Source: Thysanoteuthis rhombus (Eukaryota > Mollusca > Cephalopoda > Oegopsida > Thysanoteuthidae). From it: a stretch of 64,000 nt of DNA. Both the position numbers and the translations under genes were made by a program. The notes under the pieces are model-generated. The model was given only the letters and a program-made list of their open reading frames with translations. It had not been told where the DNA came from and made no database searches. Of the stretch, positions 34,400-51,552 are shown one piece after another. Location of the stretch: the NCBI GenBank assembly GCA_963457665.1, contig OY735219.1, forward strand, positions 42,256,714-42,320,713, read 5' to 3'. The first letter of the stretch is position 1; each line of letters opens with the position of its first letter.

Positions 34400-37395
34400 C
34401 AAGGATGAATGTCTCGCCAAGAAAAAGAGGATACTCAAAGGACAAATCTTTTAATGTACTTTTTGGTTTATCAAAAAAAGAGTTATCTTATCGGTACTTT
34501 GATTCTAACACTGAATTGATGATTTGAATTATTACTAAAATCTTGATGGGGCACTCAGTTATTCAGAGAAACAGATACTTAATTGTTCCTGTGCTGTATA
34601 CTGGATTTAATATTTGGTTGAATGTTTATAACTCCGACCTAAGATAAAGTGTTAACAACGTTCGACATGATCTTATGTGGGAAGATCTCCCTAATACATT
34701 TATTTGTTGAAAAAATGTTATCTTATTATATGACATTCCCTATTTGAAACATTCCGCCCAAGCCGGTTTAATCTTTCTTTTAAACAACGAAGTCAGTCAC
34801 TTCTATGGGCAGCGTAAACAAAGGAGAGCTAATAAGAGACCCATGCTTTTGAATAACCATATAAAGATCTCCATTACCATGCATGCAAATCTGAATGTAA
34901 TACATTTTAACTAGTTGCAATTTTCATTTATATCACATGAAGTACAAATTGACATGTCACCATAAAGATTTCTTCCATGACAACACAGATTTTATGAGCC
35001 TATTTTGTGTTGGGAAATTTCCGGATTCTAGTAATAAAACATTGGAATACACCTAGTTTATTTATTTACTCTCTCTCGCAAACACACACCGTTTGTTCTC
35101 TCATATACAAGGTGATAAAAATTACTGTCAACATATCGATCACCGCCATCCACAACAAACCGCTGTAAACACTGTTGTAGGGTTTAGGTTATACGACATT
35201 TATATTTCTCTGTGTATATGTTTGTATTTCAATTTATACTAACAAATATATTAATGATTCTTTATCTATTATATATTCTATATAATACAAAATTGCTCCA
35301 GAAAGAAGAAAAAAGGAAGCTCTTGAAATACAATCAGCAAAAGTAATAAATAAAAAACTCGTGAATCGAGATTACAGGATATTGGTAACAACGTAATCTT
35401 AGCTTCCACCCATGAAAATAATTACTATAATTTGCATCACGTGAATTACAAAACTATTTTTAACAAAATCTAAAAAAAAATTAACGTTCCAATTTCTGTT
35501 TGAAAATGGTGTTAACTAGTAGGGCTGAAATATCAACTATAAAAAAATTAGATAAAGTAGAACGTTCACTGAAAAGAAAAAATAAATAAATATGAGTATC
35601 CTATGCAAAAGTTACTGTAATCATTTTTGGTGGGAATGGAAGTTACAAGAGGTAATCTGAAAGCTTGGGAAATTCAGTGTCAGCGAACAGAAAATAGTAC
35701 GGGTTTCTGCCGCGGCCTTTTAAGAGCATCACTTTTAGTATATTTGACCACGGGAACTACTTGAACGTATAAAATGTGCCGAACGTATCTTGGTAGTTCG
35801 AGTCCGGTTTATTTAGGGATGGGGGACAGGAAATTTGGTGACCAAGGAAAGGGGAGGAGGTAATTTGCTTTGAGAAGTGAAATTCTTTCGTCGAGTCAAG
35901 ATTATGTACGTTTACGTATTTACTAAGCAAAGCGACAGGTGTGGTACAAATGAATGTTTTATCTACTATATTTGCCTAGTCGGGCACAAGGCTACGGTAC
36001 TGAAGCATCAAATTAGCAACGAACACTCCACACTCACGATTTGATTTGAGAGACGAGCATTCCAACCATCACACCGCGGTAGATTTTTTTATTTAATTAT
36101 TATTAATTATCATATATATATACAATGGATGAACGTATATCACCTGGATGTATTGGATTTTATGAGTACAAGGCTGCAGACTCAGATAGAAAGTTATTGT
36201 TCACAGAGTATGAAGGTACGAGGAGCCACCAAAAAGTTCGGGGAATTTGAAAAACGCGAGGGGACCGAATGTAGTTTGGACTTTTACTGCTGCTCTATGG
36301 GAACAATTTCCATCGTGCGATCGCTAAATAGGCAAACCCTGCTCCCAGTGTTTATTTCATCCCATTTTTTTTTCATCAAGATGAATTCGCGTTAAGCGAA
36401 TAATAGAATCAATGGGGATAATTGAAATGAATCCCCATCTTTTCAGCAGATCATCTGTCAAGACTTATAAAAAATGTTTCCAATTAACCACTTGAATGAT
36501 AACTGAATATGATATTAAAACTGTTGAGATTCATTAAACAATTAGCATAAACCTATAAAAAATTATGGGTTTATTCATGCATGGATCGGCACTGGGCAGC
36601 CTAAAGCTATCTTATTAGGAAATTTATTTTTAATCATTCAAGTATCCTAACCTTAATACTCAGCTGTTTAAAACAGTGATCAGAGATGAACTCTTAAGTC
36701 TTGAATATAACATTAAACATTAAATATTCTTTTCAGTCACTAACAAACTCTTTTTATTCTAATTTTAGTTTCAACCAATTAACATTTCTATGACGTATCA
36801 CATTTTACAACCCACTAATAGATTTGGTGGCTCTGTTCATTTATTTCATATGGACCAATCCCTTATACCTTTATAACCGCTATCGGACACGATAGACAAT
36901 TGAATAAACGTACAAATTTGCATATATGGCTATTATATAGATAGATTTCGATATTTTCATTTACTTTATGATTATATAATTGAACTATTTCATACAAAAA
37001 TATTTGTCGAATTCTTTACAGTGATTTCCTAAGCCGTATTTTAAAATTAGAAATGAAAAAAGGGCAGGCAAGATTGCGCAGTATGTCAGAAACACATAAC
37101 TAAGCTGACTGAGCACACACTGGATTTGTCATTTGCGCACGTGTGTTTTATTTAGGACCGTTCACACAAGCTACTTGTAGTTCGAGTTTTCCAGAATTTT
37201 CTAGAAATATATACATTGTCTAGAAAGCTAGACAACTTTAAACACTAAACTAAAAAAACTTTTCCTACAGATTTTTTTGTGTTACTTCAGTCACACATTT
37301 CCCTATATCTGTCAATGCAACTTATGTATATTGTAAATTACACTTTTTACACGATAACAGATGAATAAGATTTTTTAATCACTTAATGATAATAA
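34400..37395. other. No gene seen, 3 kb upstream region of the PGRP locus
   Basis: AT-rich, comparatively free of the dispersed families. The open frame at 36129-36395 (88 codons) has no signal, domain or splice context I recognise, though it is locally less AT-rich (36160-36350). Other frames are shorter. Confidence 0.4.
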
Positions 37396-37398
<3 letters not shown>

Positions 37399-37455
<57 letters not shown>

Positions 37456-37456
37456 C
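37399..37456. repeat. (AT)n microsatellite
   Basis: About 58 bp of AT dinucleotide. Confidence 0.95.
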
Positions 37457-37556
37457 TGGTTTCGTACATGTTCTCAGAAGGCAGAAGTGATTCTGTTCCT
37501 GGTCATCTTTTTTGAACTCAGGTCTTTAGTTCATCAATCATTTACACTTTCCTTAT

Positions 37557-37587
37557 ATCTATCTATCTATCTATCTATCTATATCTA

Positions 37588-37670
<83 letters not shown>
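37557..37670. repeat. (CTAT)n(AT)n compound microsatellite
   Basis: About 60 bp CTAT units then about 50 bp AT units; directly followed by the family D element. Confidence 0.95.
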
Positions 37671-37673
<3 letters not shown>

Positions 37674-37680
37674 TTATATT

Positions 37681-37890
37681 TTTGAAATTCTATTTGAAAC
37701 GATATCCCGTTATCACACGGTGAATGTATCATTTAGCCTATTGGTTAATTAAAGAAAAAGTGCCAGTTGCCTGAATCGAACCTGCAACTGATAGATAGCC
37801 GCTAAATTTGTTTATTCTATTCATGCTGTCTTGGCCAAATGATACATTCACAGTGTAATAACAGGATATCATTTTAAATAGAGTTTCAAA
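37681..37890. repeat. Family D inverted-terminus element with part of a tRNA-like core
   Basis: Left terminus 37681-37734 and right terminus 37835-37890 are imperfect inverted repeats of about 54 bp (TTTGAAATTCTATTTGAAAC and GTGAATGTATCATTT on the left; TACATTCACAGTGTAATAAC and GAGTTTCAAA on the right). Inside, on the minus strand, is a B-box GGTTCGATTCAG (37771-37782). The A-box half of the tRNA-like core is missing. TTTATTCTATTCATG follows the core as in other copies. Confidence 0.75.
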
Positions 37891-37931
37891 TCATTTGTAA
37901 ATTATTTCTGACTGATTATACATCCATCTCT

Positions 37932-37974
37932 TAATAATAATAATAATAATGATAATAATAATAATAATAATAAT

Positions 37975-38016
<42 letters not shown>
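37932..38016. repeat. (AAT)n(AT)n compound microsatellite
   Basis: AAT units with one GAT interruption, then about 38 bp AT units. Same AAT-to-AT order as at 13.0 kb, again next to a family D end. Confidence 0.95.
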
Positions 38017-38019
<3 letters not shown>

Positions 38020-38020
<1 letters not shown>

Positions 38021-38838
38021 CATGATCGATGGCAGCATCTTTTTACTTCTTAACACATATGAATATATTAGAAATTTCGTGACTTCGTTAACCAGATCAC
38101 AGAATCGACATATTCTAACTTGCCCATCCAAGCATTGTATTGTAAATGTTGTTTCCTTGCGAGCCAATGAAGTGAGTTTTGAAAAAAAAATGTAGAAAAA
38201 CATAACAGTTTGCACAACCAATATTTACACAGTGATACATAAAGCATTCGCACAGAACGACTTAACGATATATATAGAGAGAGAAAACAGAAAGAATAAG
38301 ACAGAAAGATTTATTTTAGAAAAGGCTGTACATTTTTTATGACCCGAGGCACAGCTACGGGTTAGGAAGGGTGGCGGTTATATTTGACACCCCCGGACTC
38401 AAAATGGACGGGGACCTCCAAAGCTTTATGAATAGTAGTTCTATTTGCAAATCTCACTCAATATTAGCGGAAATTCTTAAAGGAGCTAAACCCCCATCCT
38501 CCCAGGCCCCAAATCTCTGGATACGCCCCTGTTTATGGTCTGTTGCATTCGTTTACATTCCACACTATTTCTACGTCCCTCGGGCAATAGAGTTCATAAG
38601 TATATCCTATAAGTAGATCTATTCTCCAGAAAAGTGACCTTATCAAGTGTGCACTGCAGGAAAGTTAGTCAAATATCTTTAAATCGCTTCTCAAATGATC
38701 GAAATCGAGAAAGTCGTGATAATACACTCACACACGACCGAACTCTTCCAATGATGAACTCAAATACGTACTGTTTGAAACAAATGTCTGGCTGTCGTTT
38801 TCACTGACTTGTTTCCTGTTGATTTGTAGCAGTCTGAC
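38020..38838. other. Upstream flank of the PGRP gene
   Basis: No gene on either strand that I can support. The promoter of the PGRP gene could lie here or further upstream. I see no clear TATA box with initiator at a fixed distance from the start codon, and no convincing NF-kappaB-type site. Confidence 0.35.
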
Positions 38839-38860
38839 TACACTACAACCCTTTCTCTTA
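38839..38860 (+). promoter_or_regulatory. Possible 3' splice site directly before the PGRP start codon
   Basis: The sequence ACTACAACCCTTTCTCTTAG ends at 38860, two bases before the ATG at 38863. It has the pyrimidine tract and AG of an acceptor, which would place the 5' UTR in one or more upstream exons. It may instead be plain 5' UTR. Confidence 0.35.
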
Positions 38861-38862
38861 GG

Positions 38863-38917
38863 ATGTATTTAATGAAACACTTCCTCGTCTGTTTTGTTAG
38901 TTTTGTGGTGATTGAAG
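38863..38917 (+). CDS. PGRP coding exon 1 (signal peptide)
   Basis: 18 codons plus one base (phase 1). Start chosen at the first ATG after the acceptor-like site; a second in-frame Met is at codon 4. Residues 6-17 are hydrophobic (H-F-L-V-C-F-V-S-F-V-V-I), typical of a secretory signal. The donor GAAG/GTAAGA is consensus. The split codon GCT (Ala19) is completed in exon 2. Confidence 0.8.
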
Positions 38918-40305
38918 GTAAGACACATTTGACTTTTATTGGGTTAGAAAAGAACGCATTGAGTTTGTGTTCACTACGCTCTAATACTCATCTAATTATG
39001 GTTAAAATTGCTCCAGGTGAAGTGGCCTCTAAGTCTATTTCACTTAACAGAAATCGAGTAAATAGTAATGCGATTTTGAAGCCGTAGCCAGTGTAAGGAC
39101 ATTACCTACTTCTACATGGATATATTTGTACATATTCGTCATGAACTACATGAATAATATTTTAGCGTTTGCTGTTGTTCTTCACCTATCAAGTGATAGT
39201 TTATGCCTATTGTTACAAATTACGCTTTTTTCGTCAAATCTCACCAAATGTTTGAAGTGGCCCCTCTAGGGACCAGCTTCCCCCAATCTCTAACTATTCA
39301 TGAAACGAAACACACTGGTACAAACAACGTAAACACTGAAATATTCGTAAAAGGAAGTGGAAACATAGGCAAAAATTCAATTGTTTCTTCAATACTTTTA
39401 AATGCGTCCTCGTTCCGCTATAGAAGGCTCTGTCCGTCCGTCTATAGGTCTGCTCTCATATTGTTTCAAAGCTGTACAGCCAGATTTACCTCAGACTTGG
39501 CAGAAAGGTGTCCCTTAATATGATGCTTATTACCTACAAAAATATTGCTCTGTAAACAATAATGGCGTTGAAAGTCAAGGTTTTAAAATCGATTTTCCCA
39601 GTTGTTTTGCGTCGGATCTATCTGAAACTTGGTAGAAAGGTGTTCCTTGATAGGATGCTTCTTACCTAAAAAGAACTTCCATCCAGTGTGACATAACCTG
39701 TCGATAATAGCGTTTGAATTTCATGTTTTCAAATTCATCTTCTCTTTTGTTTTGAGTCATATTTCCTCGAAACTCGAGAGAAAGGTGTTAATTGATAGAA
39801 TGCTTTCTACCGAAAAAAATATTCCTCTCAGGGTCGCGTGATCTGGCAGTAATGTCGTTTAAACTTTATGTGGGACACCTCATTGCACTTCCAGTGCTTA
39901 TTCTAAATAATCGACGATGCATTGAAAATGGGGATTAGATTTAGACACAGACACAATTATATACAAGAATGCGAACCTACACCTGTGCGCAGGAAATGTA
40001 CATAATTTATGCACATAAATTACGTACATAATTTATGTACATAAATTAAGAGAGATGATACTGGAAAACAATTTTCTTTATCTAAGTACAATTAAAAAAA
40101 TTTCTGCATGTGTGTACTCTTGGGTGCTTAATTACCCGGGAGAGGGGGTTACAATAAGCAGGGCGCTGTAAAATCTGATACAGTTTAATAAGCAGGATTG
40201 AGGGGATTGAATTAGCTGGTAGGTTACAAAACTATGGCCACCTACACAGTTTTGTAGGATCTGAACAAAACGAAGTCTTTTGAGAAAGATTTATTGTAGG
40301 GTTGG

Positions 40306-40339
<34 letters not shown>

Positions 40340-43300
40340 AAGAAAGATTGACATTCACCAGATTGGTCAACACACAAAGCATTGCAGAGTGGAGTTCGGA
40401 GTTTTTTTTAATCTGTCGTTCACGAGAAATCTAATGATGATAAATAAAATAAGAATCACAGATCTCTATTTGAATTAAGTAATAAAATATCTAAATTGGC
40501 AACACCGGTGAGAAGTAACCGGAATACTCGAAGCCTTAGTTCAGTTAAACGGACAGAAAACTATTTCACGTGACTATAATGGCAGGCTGATCCACACATC
40601 ATAAAGTCTGACCTCTTCCAAACATGTACCGTTGGGACGAGAAACTGCCCTAGTTTCTTTTTTTTGTTTGGGATTTCATTCATATTCTGCTGCTATTTTT
40701 TGCGTATAGAAAATCACTGATCCATATGTTCCCGTCGAAAGCATATATTTACGCGAACGAATATTATGTTTCAGTAAGACTGTGAAATGTAAACACAGCA
40801 CTTTGCCAAAATATTTGTATTTTTCTTCTGATATGCATCTTCATCCAAGGGATTTTATGAAATTATTGAAAAGTTCGGAGCTTTCATGAGATTATTGAAA
40901 TGTTCGGAGATTTCATGAGATTATTGAAATGTTCGGAGATTTAATGAGATTATTGAAATGTTCAGATGTATCATTAAATCACTTGGGTGAAGATGTATGT
41001 CAGTGTGGTAATCTTTAGCAAAATTGTGATGTCGATCATTACTACTTAAATGATATCCATCCTTACTGATTACCTCATTACTGTAGCTTTGAGATAAAAT
41101 TACTGAATATATAAGAATATTCCTGTTCAGTATTTACAGTGTGTATACAATCTAGTTTAACACAAGGGTACATACATAAGTGAATAGATTATTTCTTTCT
41201 TTTCCCTATCCCTTTCTATCCATCTATTTATCTATATGTATAATAGTTGTGTTGTAGGTCATTGATAAATGTTCCATAATTCCATATAAAAGCCATATGT
41301 TTAAATTACAATGTTTTGTAAATCTGTATAATTACCTGTCGTGTTTGAGTCTTGTAACCTAAAGATCATAATGGATTGGTCTATGTGAAATAGATTGACA
41401 GAGCTAAAAACAATAAAGGTGTTTCTGAATGAGTTGGGCAGTTTCCAAGACATCAGGCACAATTGTGTCATGGCCAAATGCTCTTTCAAAGAGCTAGATT
41501 TGGCACATTTGACCATACTTTTTTCCTAATGTTTTAAAAGAATGATATTCAATTTTATTTTGAAATGAAATAAATCATTTTTTCAATAAAATAAGTTTCT
41601 TCCTGGGACTTTTCACTCATACCAAGCTATATCAGTGGTGACTTTTCTTACGTGGTATTTTGGCCAAATACATAGCTTAATGTCCGACCAACCTTCAAAA
41701 CAGCTTGATTCGAATTGTGACTTAATTAAAATTAGGATACTTGAATTATCAAAGATAAATTACGTTATGAATTAGCTTTATGCTTAGTGTTAATACACGT
41801 ATAAATAACCCCGTCATTTTTTACGGGTATTTGCTAGTTGATAAACATTGCTTCAGTTCCACCAAAAAAGAAAGATTTGAGATAAAATGAATTTGGTTAA
41901 CTTATTTTCTAATTAGTTCATCGTTTTACAGTATTGATAAAATCATTAAAATCTTTTTTGTTGGTTTGCAGCTTCTGGTGCTGTGGAAGATGTATGTTCT
42001 CAAATTGACATGGTCGGGCGCGAACGATGGGGTGCTAAGTTGCCTAAAGAAGTTAGCACCATGGAATTACCCGTTCGATACATCTTTATTCACCACACAG
42101 CCATGGGAGAATGTTTTAATCTTGTTTCGTGCACAGAAGAAATCAAAAAAGTTCAAGATCTGCACATGGTTACAAACGGTAAGTAAAGGTTCATAACATA
42201 AATAGATCTAGAATAAACTGAAGTAACCGTCACAGTCAATAATTGAACAACTGTAGCGTCAAAATTTGGAGTCATGTAAATTCCCATCGATGAATAAATA
42301 TGGTCAGAATAAATTTTATTTATGACATCCCCGGCGTTTTCCACTGGAAAACATCTGAAGTAGGGTAAAAAACATTTAGAAACATCCAGATTTTGGAGAA
42401 TCTAGAAGCCAAAAGGAAGAAAAAAAACCGACTGGACGATATGTGGATAATATATGTAATATGTGAATCTATATATTGATAACCAGATGTGGACCTATGC
42501 TTCGTGTCACCCGGTGTGGCAACTCATGGTGTCATTCCTCTTACAGAATTTGCTCTCTTCCCGGAATATCTAGAATGTTGGTGATCTTTTTGCATTAATA
42601 CATTATACCTTATTAATCACGATTCTCTTACATCATTCAATGTGACGTCATAAGCCAACATTTACTTACAACTCTATTCACATTTTCAGTTTTGACTTTG
42701 TGAAATAATATGAGGCACGGGTAGAATGAAATTGTTTTTAATTAACATTCAGTCATATCTTCCACAGCCTATAGTTCACCCTTCTAAAACAAGGATAGTG
42801 ATTCATGGGGAGCTTTTTGAGATATATTGTGGACAGTCATGAGCATTTACGAAATCGTATGAAAATGATCCTGGATATCTCTCAAAGAAAAATTTCTGGA
42901 TCCACTCCAAAATTCAAAGAACTTCTCACCCCATTATCTGCTCTTCCACAATATTTCATTGAAGTTTATAAAGAAAAAGTTACGGAGATGTTTCATTAGG
43001 AGAAAGAATTATCGAGAAAATATTTGAAAAAAATTAAGCAGTCCTCTTTGGGGTCACTTCCTCCGATGGTGTCACACGGAGTGGACGGGGCCGGGTCAAC
43101 CTCTCCGTTAGCAGGCCACTGTCTATGGTATTGCAAGTGTATGAAGATTTCCTTTGTCTTGAAAGATAACGTGATGTCTTTAAAAAACGTCAATAGAAAT
43201 TTCAAATTCTGATTCGTTTTTCATTGAATAACACACCATTAACGCTTTTAAAGTTTTTGTTTACATTTGAAATTTGATTGAAGAAGATATACAATGTATC

Positions 43301-43914
43301 GAAAGTTTTCGGTATTATTATATCATATTTGAAAAAAATTGAACCAGTCTTGTTATTCTTTCTTTTAATGATAGTAATGCTGAAGTATTAAGGAGGCTAA
43401 ATGTCAATTGTTTTCAAGCGAAAGCCACCAGTTACTACTGATGTAAAAACTCCTTTATTATGATAATAATGATAATGATATTCTATTTTCAGGATGGTCG
43501 GATATTGGTTACAACTTTTTGGTAGGAGAGGATGGACGAGTGTACGAAGCCCGCGGTTGGAACCGAACCGGTGCCCACACAAAGTTTTATAACAAAGTAG
43601 CCGTTGCAGTGTCTGTTATGGGAAACTTTATGTCAAGGATTCCCAACAAACTAGCTCTCAGAGCCGTTCACAATATTATTGACTGTGGTGTGAAAAAGGG
43701 TTTCATAGCCCCCGATTACGAATTGTTTGGCCACCGAGATGTTCGTCTTACCAAGTGTCCCGGAGATGCATTTTATGAACATATCAAGCAATGGTCACAT
43801 TTTAGCTTTAATAAACCTACTCTTCATAGTAACGCTCCTATGTATCACTCTTCTTTGAAATTAGTGGTCATTGGATTTTTGGTTACGGCTATTGCGATAT
43901 TGATTGATTATTAG
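38863..43914 (+). CDS. Peptidoglycan recognition protein, secreted/anchored amidase type (three-exon gene)
   Basis: Joining 38863-38917, 41972-42178 and 43493-43914 gives a 227-residue protein. Residues 1 to about 20 are a signal peptide. Residues about 27-191 form one PGRP/Amidase_2 domain: R37-W38-G39-A40, I58-H59-H60-T61, G93-Y94-N95-F96, R108-G109-W110-N111, G114-A115-H116, G167-H168-R169-D170, C176-P177-G178. H59, Y94, H168 and C176 (H to C spacing 8, T174 two before C176) match the zinc-site residues of amidase PGRPs and T7 lysozyme, so the enzyme is predicted to cleave the muramoyl-L-alanine bond of peptidoglycan. C66-C72 and C27-C152 are likely disulfides. After a Ser/Asn/Ala-containing linker (200-208) the chain ends with about 15 hydrophobic residues (211-225) and D-Y, the form of a GPI-anchor signal; a C-terminal membrane span is the alternative. 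Both introns obey GT-AG. No pseudogene damage seen. Confidence 0.93.
39455..39860 (+). repeat. Tandem repeat in PGRP intron 1, three copies of about 132-145 bp
   Basis: GAAAGGTGT occurs at 39503, 39635 and 39780, each preceded by an ACTTGG(C/T)A-like or ACTCGAGA block and followed by a TGATA(G)GATGCTT-like block and a TACC(T/G)A-AAA block. Copies are clearly diverged. Confidence 0.7.
40307..40338. repeat. (GATA)n microsatellite
   Basis: Eight GATA units followed by GAAAGAAAG. Confidence 0.95.
40830..41001. repeat. 29 bp minisatellite (four units) between 31 bp inverted flanks, in PGRP intron 1
   Basis: ATTATTGAAA recurs at 40862, 40891, 40920 and 40949, an exact 29 bp period; the unit includes ATGAGATTATTGAAATGTTC. 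Left flank 40830-40860 and right flank 40971-41001 are reverse complements at about 26 of 31 positions (CATCTTCATCCAAGG against CTTGGGTGAAGATG). The whole resembles a small foldback element whose centre has expanded. Confidence 0.8.
41972..42178 (+). CDS. PGRP coding exon 2
   Basis: 207 bp, residues 19-87 plus one base of 88. Holds the N-terminal half of the PGRP fold, including R-W-G-A (37-40), zinc ligand H59 in I-H-H-T, and the conserved close cysteine pair C66/C72. Donor AACG/GTAAGT is a full consensus. Both boundaries are phase 1. A second open frame overlapping this exon is a shadow. Confidence 0.93.
42179..43492 (+). other. PGRP intron 2 (1,314 bp)
   Basis: Begins GTAAGTAAAGG and ends ATTCTATTTTCAG. 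It contains an inverted family B copy (42218-42355) and two short GC-richer repeat-like boxes: GTGTCACCCGGTGTGGCAAC near 42506 and GGTGTCACACGGAGTGGACG near 43068, the latter followed by GGGCCGGGTCAACC. No exon-like insert recognised. Confidence 0.8.
42218..42355 (-). repeat. Dispersed family B element, copy in PGRP intron 2
   Basis: Inverted copy: CAGTCAATAATTGAACAACT, TCAAAATTTGGAGTCATGTA, TATGGTCAGAATAAATTTTA and GGCGTTTTCCACTGGAAAAC on the + strand. Shares its block order with 54.05-54.20 kb. Non-coding. Confidence 0.7.
43493..43914 (+). CDS. PGRP coding exon 3
   Basis: 422 bp including the stop TAG. Encodes residues 88-227: G-W-S-D-I-G-Y-N-F-L-V-G with zinc ligand Y94, the R-G-W-N and G-A-H-T elements, the helix with L-A-L-R-A-V-H-N, then G-H-R-D-V with H168 and K-C-P-G with C176, and finally the hydrophobic C-terminal tail. 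The domain and its anchor are thus in one exon. No in-frame stop before the tail. Confidence 0.95.
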
Positions 43915-44130
43915 TTTATATTTGTTTTGCTATTTGTTGATTTAAACTCAGTGTTTCCTTAAATCCCGTTGAATTCTTGATTTTTTTGACGTTATCGGAG
44001 GGAATTAATCGATTTTAATAGCAAGCGCAATATTCCAACTTTGGTTATGTCAAAATATGTCAGGGTAATTAGAAGTGTGCCAAAAGACTGATTACAAAGG
44101 GCACAATGCTCTGAAATACCCTTCATGGCA

Positions 44131-44444
44131 ATTAAAGAAATGAACCATGTGTATTCAAACCAATGGAAACATGTGTATCTCTAACAGATGGAATGAATGA
44201 CATCACCATTTCTTATAACCTTTCGATGGGAGCGCGATAATATAGCCTTTTGATAACTTCAAGCGTCGAGCGGACGCTAATTTCAAGTAATGATAAAAGA
44301 AATTTCTAATTATCAGTCCGTAAGCAATTCAATTATAATCGATTTTAATACATAAAGGCGAGGATTATATAACAGCAGTGTCTTCTTTTCCCTCTTACAA
44401 ACTGCTTTCAAGTATTAAGGTTAACGTGTTTTGAATGTAATAAA
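44131..44444 (+). terminator. Candidate PGRP polyadenylation signals
   Basis: ATTAAA at 44131-44136 and AATAAA at 44439-44444 are the first plausible cleavage/polyadenylation hexamers after the stop codon, giving a 3' UTR of about 0.24 or 0.55 kb. No transcript evidence is available to choose. Confidence 0.25.
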
Positions 44445-44449
44445 AAAGA

Positions 44450-45535
44450 AATTATCGATATAGTTTTTAGCTCAAAATATATGAAGAAGTACAGAAAATG
44501 GAAGATCTAATTCTTTTTGAAAAATTTGGAAAAATGCTAGGATTTTTCAAGAAATTTTCCAAGCGAAAACATTATTTTTATATATATTTTCTTCTTATGT
44601 CTCTGACACTAATGATACCAGCCCACAAGTTTTTGCATGTTGTTTTGCGTGCAATGTATCAATCGAGAACTTCTATTTTTTATAACGTCTTTCCGAGGCG
44701 AGTTACCACTTTGCCTTTTTAAATCATATATTTTCTCCATAACGCATTGGCCGAACCTTAAACGAATAAATTGAATTAGCAAACAGGAAAATCAACCCAA
44801 GCATCAGACAGTTTAATGGAAATAGGCAAGCCTGCCTAGATTAATTAATATATAATGAACTAGGCAAAACGAATGAAATAAAAAAAACAATTGAAATCCA
44901 TGCTAAATACATCCACAAATAAAAAAGATGAACTCTTTTTGTTTCATTTAATAGAATTAAAACAAAATATATTTTCAAAAATATTTATATTTTTATATGA
45001 TTGCCTAATGAGCGTCTTTCTATTCAATATCATATTCACATACTATTCAGAAAATATTTTTGCTTTTATATTGTCGCATTTGGAAGCATAAACAATGCAT
45101 GATCACATGAAACGTCCCCTCAGCTTATATCTTTGGTAATAAAAGTAAACTGCAGGAAATTTAATTCATTTTAGTTTTCATTATTCTTATATAATTTTGT
45201 CTCCTTTTACTCTCTTTCTTTCCCCCATCCCTGCTCCATTCATCTAAATCCATTCAATATAAATGTTTCTTTTCATTTGAGAGAAAAAAATGAAATGATT
45301 TCGACAGCATTTTTTTTTAACCATATAGCAAACCGTTTACCTAAAAGAAAATATCTTCTGCAATGCACCCAATGTATGTCATTCTTCTAGCATCCTCATA
45401 TATAGATGTAATAAAAACCATAACAATGCCTGCTAAGCAGACTCAGAAGAAATCCTGCTTTGATTGTCCTCAATTACTAATTACCTAAGATCGATCCATT
45501 CTGATCACTTTTCGGACACCACAAGCAAGAACGGC
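44450..45535. other. No gene seen
   Basis: AT-rich region downstream of the PGRP gene. Open frames of 66-74 codons at 44498-44722 and 44891-45091 have no recognisable domains or splice context. Confidence 0.4.
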
Positions 45536-45539
45536 CAGA

Positions 45540-45785
45540 AATCTGGTCGTTCATCAACTAGCTTTCATTATTCCGGTTATTTGGATATCGAACACATACC
45601 TTTGAAAGTATAAGTATGTTTTTGATATTCACCTGATCAGAATGCTGAAAGTTTTCATTATTCCGGTTATCTGAATATCAAGTGGTGACCTAAACCATAA
45701 AAATGTAAAGGTATGTAGTTGATATTCTCATATATTATGTAAGATTTCATTACTCTGGTTATATGAATATTAATCAAATAGAGAC
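45540..45785 (+). repeat. Tandem repeat, three copies of about 90-92 bp
   Basis: TTTCATTA(T)TCCGGTTAT occurs at 45563 and 45653 and as TTTCATTACTCTGGTTAT at 45745. Each is followed by (T/C/A)TG(G/A)ATAT and, in the first two, by ACATACC/GGTATG-type sequence with AAAGTATAAGTATG or AAATGTAAAGGTATG. Confidence 0.7.
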
Positions 45786-46014
45786 GAATTATTTCAGCAT
45801 CACATTTTCAAGTGTTATGTTTTTGAAAAAGATAACGCGTCTGTAACAGCTATACATTTTTCTTCTGCTTGTACATATTGATGACTCATCGAAATAAAAT
45901 CAATAAAATTAAAATCTTGAATTTCCTCTTTGTTGTTTTCATTCGACTTTACTTTGAAGAACGAACATATTGTTAAGACTTGGTGTAGCTATTCTTATTA
46001 AGTAAATTGAATCC

Positions 46015-46370
46015 CCTTTTGTATGTACGTGTATTTGTTTGTTCCAAAGATCTTGGACATACTGTTTTGTCTATAGACTTGAAAAACAAGCACTATTCCA
46101 TAAGACTCCTTCCAAAATGTTTTTATTTTTGGAAAAAAAAAGAAGCTTTTTGACCTTTTGGGGAGCCTTATTTTTGTTTGTTTATTTCAGAATCTAAATG
46201 TTTCATGATGCTTAAAAAAAAATTATTTTAGATGTTTTCCAATGGAAACGCCGGTGATGTCATAGATATAATTTATTCTGACCATATTTATTCTTCGATG
46301 GAACTTTTTCACATGACTCCAAATTTTGACGATACGGTTGTTCAGTCATTGACTGTGATGGTGAGTTTGA
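46015..46370 (+). repeat. Dispersed family B element, long copy
   Basis: Same organisation as 25975-26390: TGTTTTGTCTATAGACTTG, CTTTTTGACCTTTTGGGGAG, then TTTTCCAATGGAAACGCCGG, TGATGTCATAGATATAATTT, ACATGACTCCAAATTTTGAC and CTGTGATGGTGAGTTTGAG. Confidence 0.65.
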
Positions 46371-46490
46371 GTAGATTTTCTTTAATGTTAATTCTACTGT
46401 ACATCACAGCAATCCATGTCTCACCATTTTTAGATGTGCTGGTATCTATAGCGGTGATTACCGTCCTGACTGACAATCTGAAATCCTTGC

Positions 46491-50139: not shown

Positions 50140-51552
50140 ATCATCCGTCTTTTATCGTTTGTCATTGGACGTTGACCTTCCCTAGGATTCGTCAGACCTC
50201 TCTATTATGGTCGTCGCAGAATCAATACTTTCTGAACTTGTCTGGTTCGTCTCTCCATCTTGTATTCTGTTGACCTCGGTTGCGCATGTGATCTCTGGGA
50301 ATTCACGTTCCATGTGCAGCGAGGGTCAACCATTCTTGCAACATGACCAGCCCATTGCCAATTAAGTTTTCTAATCGATTCTATAATGTCTTGGACTCCT
50401 GATTTTTCCTTAACATATTGTGATGCCTTATGATCTCTCCATGTGAGGTTGAGCATGATTCTCTGCATGTGCGCTTACCTAGTTCTCAGTTGAGGGTTGG
50501 GTTCCATGTTGCGGCTCCATAGGTGACTATTGAGGAAATGCATTGGTTGTATACTCTTCTTTTTAGGGATAATGGGATTTTCTTGTTCTTGAAGGTTGAG
50601 CTTCCTCTGATCAAGGCTTGCCACCCTAGAGTGATCCTTCGCTTGATTTCTTTTTCTTTCGAGAATTCCATGGAGATTCGTTGTCCTAAGCAGATGTAGT
50701 GGTCTACTTTCTCCAGTTTTGCGTTTTCAATTTTGATCGTCGTGCATCTACTTCCTACACCTTTGATGCATATGACCTTTGTTTTGCTGAAGTTCGTGTG
50801 AAAGCCACCTTTCTTGCTTTTTTCATTCAGTTCATCTAGCATTACTCGGAGGTCGTGGAGGTTCTTTGCATAAAGGGTGATGTCGTCTGCAAATCTCAGG
50901 TTGCTTAGGTATTCGCCGTCTATTCTGATTCCTTCATTTTCCCGCCTAGATTCTGAAAGACCATCTCGAAGTAGGCTGTGAAGAGTTTGGGTGAGCTGAT
51001 ATCACCTTGTCTTACCCCATTTTTGGAGCAGAAAGTGCCCTGAGTCTTTATGTAGCCTGATAAAAGAGCTGCTGTGACAGTATATATGTTGCAGTTCTCC
51101 GACATACACGGGATCAACACTTCGCGTCTTATGGAGAGTCTTATTTACTTTGGTTGCTTCAATTTTCTTCCTCTTATTGACGTTGGCTTAGAATTTCTGT
51201 GTTTATCCATGAGAATCTTGGTTTTATCTGAGATTTTACAGATGGTTGGTGTGCTCTGTGGTTTAAACATAGTGGCAATTAGAGAGGCAGTTACTTTGTT
51301 GATGAATTCGTTGTTGTTGGTGTCGTTCTCTTCTGATTAGGTGAGAAGTTTATATCTGTTTTTCTGTTCAAGCTTGAAGCATCGAGTTAACTCTTTTTGT
51401 ACGTTTGGTGGTTGTGGTTTTTTGTGGAACTTTTTCCTGCGTTCTTTGTTTGTGCAATTTGAATTTCACATCTCACCTTTCTGCGGTCACCCTCTACGTT
51501 CACTTGCTTTAAGACCTGGATGTCTTCGATGGTGTCGCTTTTGTCGGGCATA
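50140..51552 (-). pseudogene. RTE-like LINE, 3' half including RT catalytic site (best copy)
   Basis: The longest and least decayed copy. In sense (minus) order: a linker ending near 51130; G-V-R-Q-G-D-I-S-S-P-K-L-F (about 51020); after a frameshift near 50940, N-L-R-F-A-D-D-I-T-L-Y-A (about 50890), the Y/F-A-D-D metal-binding site of reverse transcriptase; then N-F-S-K-T-K-V-I, Y-I-C-L-G-Q-R-I and Y-G-A-A-T-W-N (50842-50486); then K-L-N-W-Q-W-A-G-H-V-A-R-M (about 50360); then the tail boxes and ATGATAATG-type end near 50145. At least two frameshifts. The endonuclease is missing. It carried out target-primed reverse transcription when intact. Confidence 0.8.

Follow-up and report, generated by a model that had tools for sequence, protein, structure and literature searches.

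A predicted GPI-anchored peptidoglycan recognition protein with a conserved amidase site in the squid Thysanoteuthis rhombus

A three-exon gene encoding a short peptidoglycan recognition protein (PGRP) with conserved catalytic residues and a hydrophobic C-terminal tail was found in a 64,000 nucleotide stretch of the Thysanoteuthis rhombus genome, referred to here as the window (G000:C22:42256714-42320713, where C22 is contig OY735219.1, one of the 514 contigs that make up the 2.73 Gb genome). The reading that best explains these features, to which we assign a probability of roughly 0.65, is that the product is a secreted squid short PGRP that is GPI-anchored near S200 and acts as a zinc amidase at the cell surface. 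The signal peptide would be cleaved and the protein secreted, and the C-terminus would then be cut near S200 to leave a GPI anchor on the outer cell surface. The anchored protein would use its activity as a zinc N-acetylmuramoyl-L-alanine amidase to trim fragments of peptidoglycan near the membrane, and such trimming may damp or edit the bacterial signal, rather than the PGRP itself signalling. We infer the cleavage, the GPI attachment, the amidase activity and the biological role from the features described below. The gene is a real but ordinary squid immune gene, and its product is most likely a GPI-tethered amidase PGRP. The product had been described as a receptor-enzyme in a first-pass annotation of this DNA; because either a GPI anchor or a tail of two residues would come without a cytoplasmic signalling part, that label is one that we would only infer.

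The three-exon model of the first-pass annotation proved correct at every coordinate (Table 1). Both introns have GT-AG borders, and the exons join in frame to a total of 684 nt, corresponding to 227 amino acids and a stop codon. The donors of the two introns scored high, at 10.2 and 10.4 bits, using a donor matrix. When positions 35000–41971 were filtered by hydropathy, donor and phase, the two alternative start codons, which share one donor, were the sole candidates to pass. The hydrophobic core encoded by exon 1, with small residues up to A22, was judged by eye and by hydropathy to be signal-peptide-like. The homologous exons of the two paralogues found on the same contig have identical phase-1 borders, which provides independent support for exons 2 and 3; exon 1 and the absence of further exons form part of the predicted gene model. 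Beyond the stop codon, 10 more AATAAA or ATTAAA motifs are present within 43901–46400 in addition to the one listed in Table 1. A plus-strand scan of 2 kb also revealed an NF-kappaB-like site, GGGGACCTCC, at window positions 38410–38419, 453 bases 5' of the first ATG.

Table 1. Features of the window gene (window positions) and exons found for its paralogues (contig positions)
Feature	Position	Strand	Content or basis
Exon 1	38863..38917	+	Two possible start codons (38863, 38872), hydrophobic core resembling a signal peptide, donor in phase 1
Exon 2	41972..42178	+	PGRP N-terminal segment, zinc ligand H59, cysteine pair C66/C72
Exon 3	43493..43914	+	Y94, H168, T174, C176, linker, hydrophobic tail, stop
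Predicted omega site and spacer, codons 200-210	43828..43860	+	S200-N201-A202 and 8-residue spacer; simple rule of thumb
Hydrophobic C-terminal run, codons 211-225	43861..43905	+	Hydropathy
AATAAA, possible polyadenylation signal	44439..44444	+	525 bases past the stop
Upstream paralogue, C22 (locus L015)	42221107-42221310, 42224214-42224551		NSPG for CPG; no tail in exons found
Downstream paralogue, C22	42349756-42349962, 42353049-42353398		Catalytic residues present; end KPTKKPIVG
C14 paralogue	20021401-20021601, 20025036-20025149, 20025439-20025644		Catalytic residues present; no tail in exons found

The only Pfam match of the 227-residue protein was to Amidase_2 (PF01510, E=1.5e-18). In the PDB, 33 distinct sequences were matched at E<=0.001, the top match (E=1.7e-47) being 1yck, which we take to be mammalian PGLYRP1. 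Entries for PGLYRP1 ranked best and were followed by Drosophila PGRP-LB, to which 1oht, titled 'CG14704 protein', presumably also belongs. The PGRP chains aligned with residues 29–191 of the window protein. The PGRP-specific N-terminal segment and cysteine pair are both present, with residues 30–50 pairing with PGRP-LB and C66/C72 lying opposite its C50/C56. In the printed alignment with PGRP-LB (7nsx by name, phmmer E=4.1e-44), H59, Y94, H168, T174 and C176 stand opposite H42, Y78, H152, T158 and C160, which we take to be the amidase-site residues, namely zinc ligands His, His and Cys together with Tyr and Thr. Since these five residues match those of an amidase PGRP, the site is complete as far as can be judged from sequence, and the earlier statement that H59, Y94, H168 and C176 are all intact was confirmed both in the joined protein and in this alignment. 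Mammalian PGLYRP1 (2r2k by name) is the closest overall in the PDB but is a non-amidase with Ser opposite both H59 and C176. A pair of the G88-W89 type is said to favour DAP-type peptidoglycan, but as the same pair is also found in PGLYRP1, it does not settle the peptidoglycan specificity.

The alignment with PGRP-LB stops at residue 195, ahead of the tail of the window protein. The domain ends with W-S-H-F (to residue 191) and is followed by a polar linker and then by LVVIGFLVTAIAILI and DY. The hydrophobic tail proposed in the first-pass annotation was seen, and consists of 15 hydrophobic residues preceded by K210 and followed by two residues (D and Y), with no positive charge after it. Its maximum Kyte-Doolittle hydropathy over 19 residues is 2.4. 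When all 838 frames in the window that end in a stop and span 37 codons or more were scored, 4 reached this value; one was the tail itself and two were microsatellite translations. With the tail set aside, 3 of 837 frames reached the same value, as did 3 of 20000 random-codon tails. The first-pass annotation had named a predicted omega site around residues 200–208 as possible support, and S200-N201-A202 was the only triplet to fit the simple GPI omega rule, which is a rule of thumb and not a trained predictor. Taken together, the short hydrophobic run, the lack of a positive charge after it, the two residues beyond and the single omega site make a GPI signal, on this rule-of-thumb reading, the more likely choice than a helix that spans the membrane.

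If the tail were instead kept as a C-terminal transmembrane helix, the product would be a single-pass membrane protein, and the tail hydropathy of 2.4 does exceed the usual transmembrane threshold of 1.6. The length of only 15 hydrophobic residues, the D and Y that follow without a positive stop-transfer charge, and the lysine on the lumenal side are a better fit to a GPI signal, and we consider a retained helix unlikely. GPI signals are often called helices by helix predictors, so the report of two transmembrane helices in EsPGRP4 of the squid Euprymna scolopes, to which a membrane helix might otherwise appeal, cannot separate a GPI signal from a membrane helix. In the available text of that report (PMC10844198), the position of the helices is unspecified.

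Exon 3 encodes the tail together with Y94, H168 and C176. Splicing out of exon 3 ahead of the tail had been named as a finding that would speak against an anchored protein, and no obvious donor for it was found by scanning. The best internal donor of exon 3 (6.0 bits) lies at codon 152, all sites above 2 bits sit at or before that codon, and none above 2 bits was found between it and the stop, using this donor matrix and a threshold of our own. A tailless isoform made via an internal donor of exon 3 was rejected on this basis.

To place the window gene among its relatives, the genome was searched and the best candidates scored. The Pfam model gave three matches, all on C22, and tblastn with the window protein gave at least 10 matches, corresponding to at least four genes including the window gene itself (Table 1). 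Identity to the window gene was 86 of 180 aligned residues for the upstream paralogue, 99 of 183 for the downstream paralogue and 71 of 173 for the C14 paralogue, which has one extra intron in the part compared. In the upstream paralogue the zinc Cys is replaced by Ser, and the frames of both exons found are open. The window gene and the downstream paralogue differ at 66, 51 and 116 of 183 codons at codon positions 1, 2 and 3, respectively, and this excess at the third position fits protein-level constraint on the domain, the tail not being covered by the comparison. In the search for signal exons of the two C22 paralogues, 5 and at least 15 candidates were found in the approximately 26 kb and 19 kb upstream, many of them translated simple repeats and none convincing. 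The same hydropathy, donor and phase filter gave no candidate first exon in the 9.4 kb upstream of the C14 gene.

In the exons found for the three paralogues, a stop codon comes 2 to 12 residues past the W-x-H-F/Y domain end, and none of these exons encodes a hydrophobic tail. This could be taken to mean that the window gene encodes a mainly soluble secreted amidase, with the tail skipped, cleaved off or representing a recent functionless chance extension. We regard this as improbable, as the window gene has no donor above 2 bits from codon 152 to its stop, the tail hydropathy is rarely reached by chance, and the downstream paralogue may own another exon, given a possible donor at its stop. 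That donor is the sequence GTTAAG (locus L017, approximately C22:42353395), beyond which a further C-terminal exon may exist. Among the matches listed, no convincing homologue of the tail was found by tblastn in 16 loci (the C22 flanks and C14) and the window. With E=0.036, the best non-self match to the tail was attributed to chance; it lies on the minus strand, some 20 kb further upstream than the upstream paralogue. At the DNA level, exon 3 and the downstream paralogue could be matched over 143 bases only, a stretch that ends inside the domain. The DNA of exon 3 has diverged too far from that of the paralogues to show whether the tail was gained here or lost in them.

The first-pass annotation had mentioned anchored PGRPs in Euprymna, and PGRPs proposed to lie at the cell surface are described in the available portions of the published reports. 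EsPGRP3 and EsPGRP4 were proposed as receptors on light-organ cell surfaces, and EsPGRP2 is regarded as a secreted protein (PMC6448482). Signal peptides were reported in EsPGRP1–3 and EsPGRP5, two transmembrane helices in EsPGRP4, and the zinc residues are kept in all Euprymna PGRPs (PMC10844198). Set side by side by description, EsPGRP3 and EsPGRP4 are, like the window protein, squid PGRPs with zinc residues, and as they are proposed surface receptors, squid PGRPs that combine a surface location with zinc residues are already known and hence not new. EsPGRP3 has a signal peptide with no membrane part named in the available text (PMC10844198), and the anchor of the window protein looks GPI-like. 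The only departure from the Euprymna report, as far as that text goes, is that the upstream neighbour carries Ser in place of the zinc Cys.

The window gene may be an orthologue of EsPGRP3 or EsPGRP4, possibly with similar surface handling of bacteria, a reading that is compatible with the others and that we place slightly below an even chance. In addition to the proposed surface location of both proteins (PMC6448482), the gene models g32443 (EsPGRP1) and g32454 (listed under EsPGRP4) tabulated in PMC10844198 have close numbers, which may mean that EsPGRP1 and EsPGRP4 are neighbours in a similar local cluster if the numbering follows position; this is a lead only. As PGRPs are by no means confined to symbiotic hosts, the presence of the gene does not imply a role in a light organ.

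Membrane association has also been described for PGRPs of other animals, here compared using the available parts of the reports. The annelid Olavius algarvensis has PGRPs that are anchored N-terminally, two of which, OalgPGRP1 and OalgPGRP5, keep the amidase residues (PMC5117596); these are membrane PGRPs too, but their membrane segment lies at the N-terminus and comes with a cytoplasmic part, unlike a C-terminal anchor. RpiPGRP1 and RpiPGRP4 of Ridgeia piscesae have a signal peptide and a transmembrane segment and are predicted to be secreted, RpiPGRP1 is 42% like EsPGRP3, and RpiPGRP2 alone is named as a predicted amidase (PMC3372519). By description, RpiPGRP1 and RpiPGRP4 resemble the window protein in having a signal peptide and a hydrophobic segment, but differ in being predicted as secreted. 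Molluscan PGRPs identified so far are all of the short type, according to the available text of a review (PMC5877582). Nothing further on a PGRP anchor was found in the available portions of PMC7308585, PMC4361686, PMC5216023, PMC3187790, PMC9533005 and PMC13200733, and the GPI passage in PMC9533005 concerns CD14. Three PGRPs are expressed in Octopus vulgaris hemocytes, and the PGRP qPCR primers in the available part of the same report (PMC4199593) had no exact match in 19 loci and no match with up to 3 mismatches in the loci scanned and the window.

The three genes on C22 may divide the work between them, with a GPI-tethered amidase encoded in the window, a tailless downstream neighbour with amidase residues, and an upstream neighbour lacking the zinc Cys that is maybe a pure sensor; this division is put forward tentatively, and we think it somewhat less probable than not. 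A tethered amidase, if true, would be a membrane-bound peptidoglycan sink, in squids not necessarily with a Vibrio light organ. If the anchor is real and squid-wide, squids in general would carry an amidase tethered to the cell surface, and the trait would not be a speciality of the Euprymna-Vibrio association. Comparison with the neighbour lacking the zinc Cys could test how squids separate peptidoglycan sensing from removal.

Mollusc-type hemocyanin was also detected in the genome, with 52 matches of PF14830. Half of a functional unit (locus L032) was identical at 180 of 201 residues to a chain of PDB 4yd9, which is presumably the hemocyanin of the squid Todarodes pacificus. Its identity to keyhole limpet hemocyanin was 101 of 199, and these two comparisons point to the genome of a squid or a close relative. 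On the minus strand of another contig (C25:56607734-56625492), nine hemocyanin functional-unit matches of 97.0 bits each, in open frames of 464 amino acids, are spaced at approximately 2.2 kb; either a single unit has been amplified in tandem or the assembly contains an artificial repeat. In the window itself, a Pfam family match was found for 1 of the 10 frames tested, from 46 listed frames of at least 90 amino acids. This weak match is to a reverse transcriptase (PF00078, E=2.1e-6), its 28 bits falling short of the cut-off of 29.6, and the fragment, at window positions 50486–51001 on the minus strand, is likely a LINE remnant.
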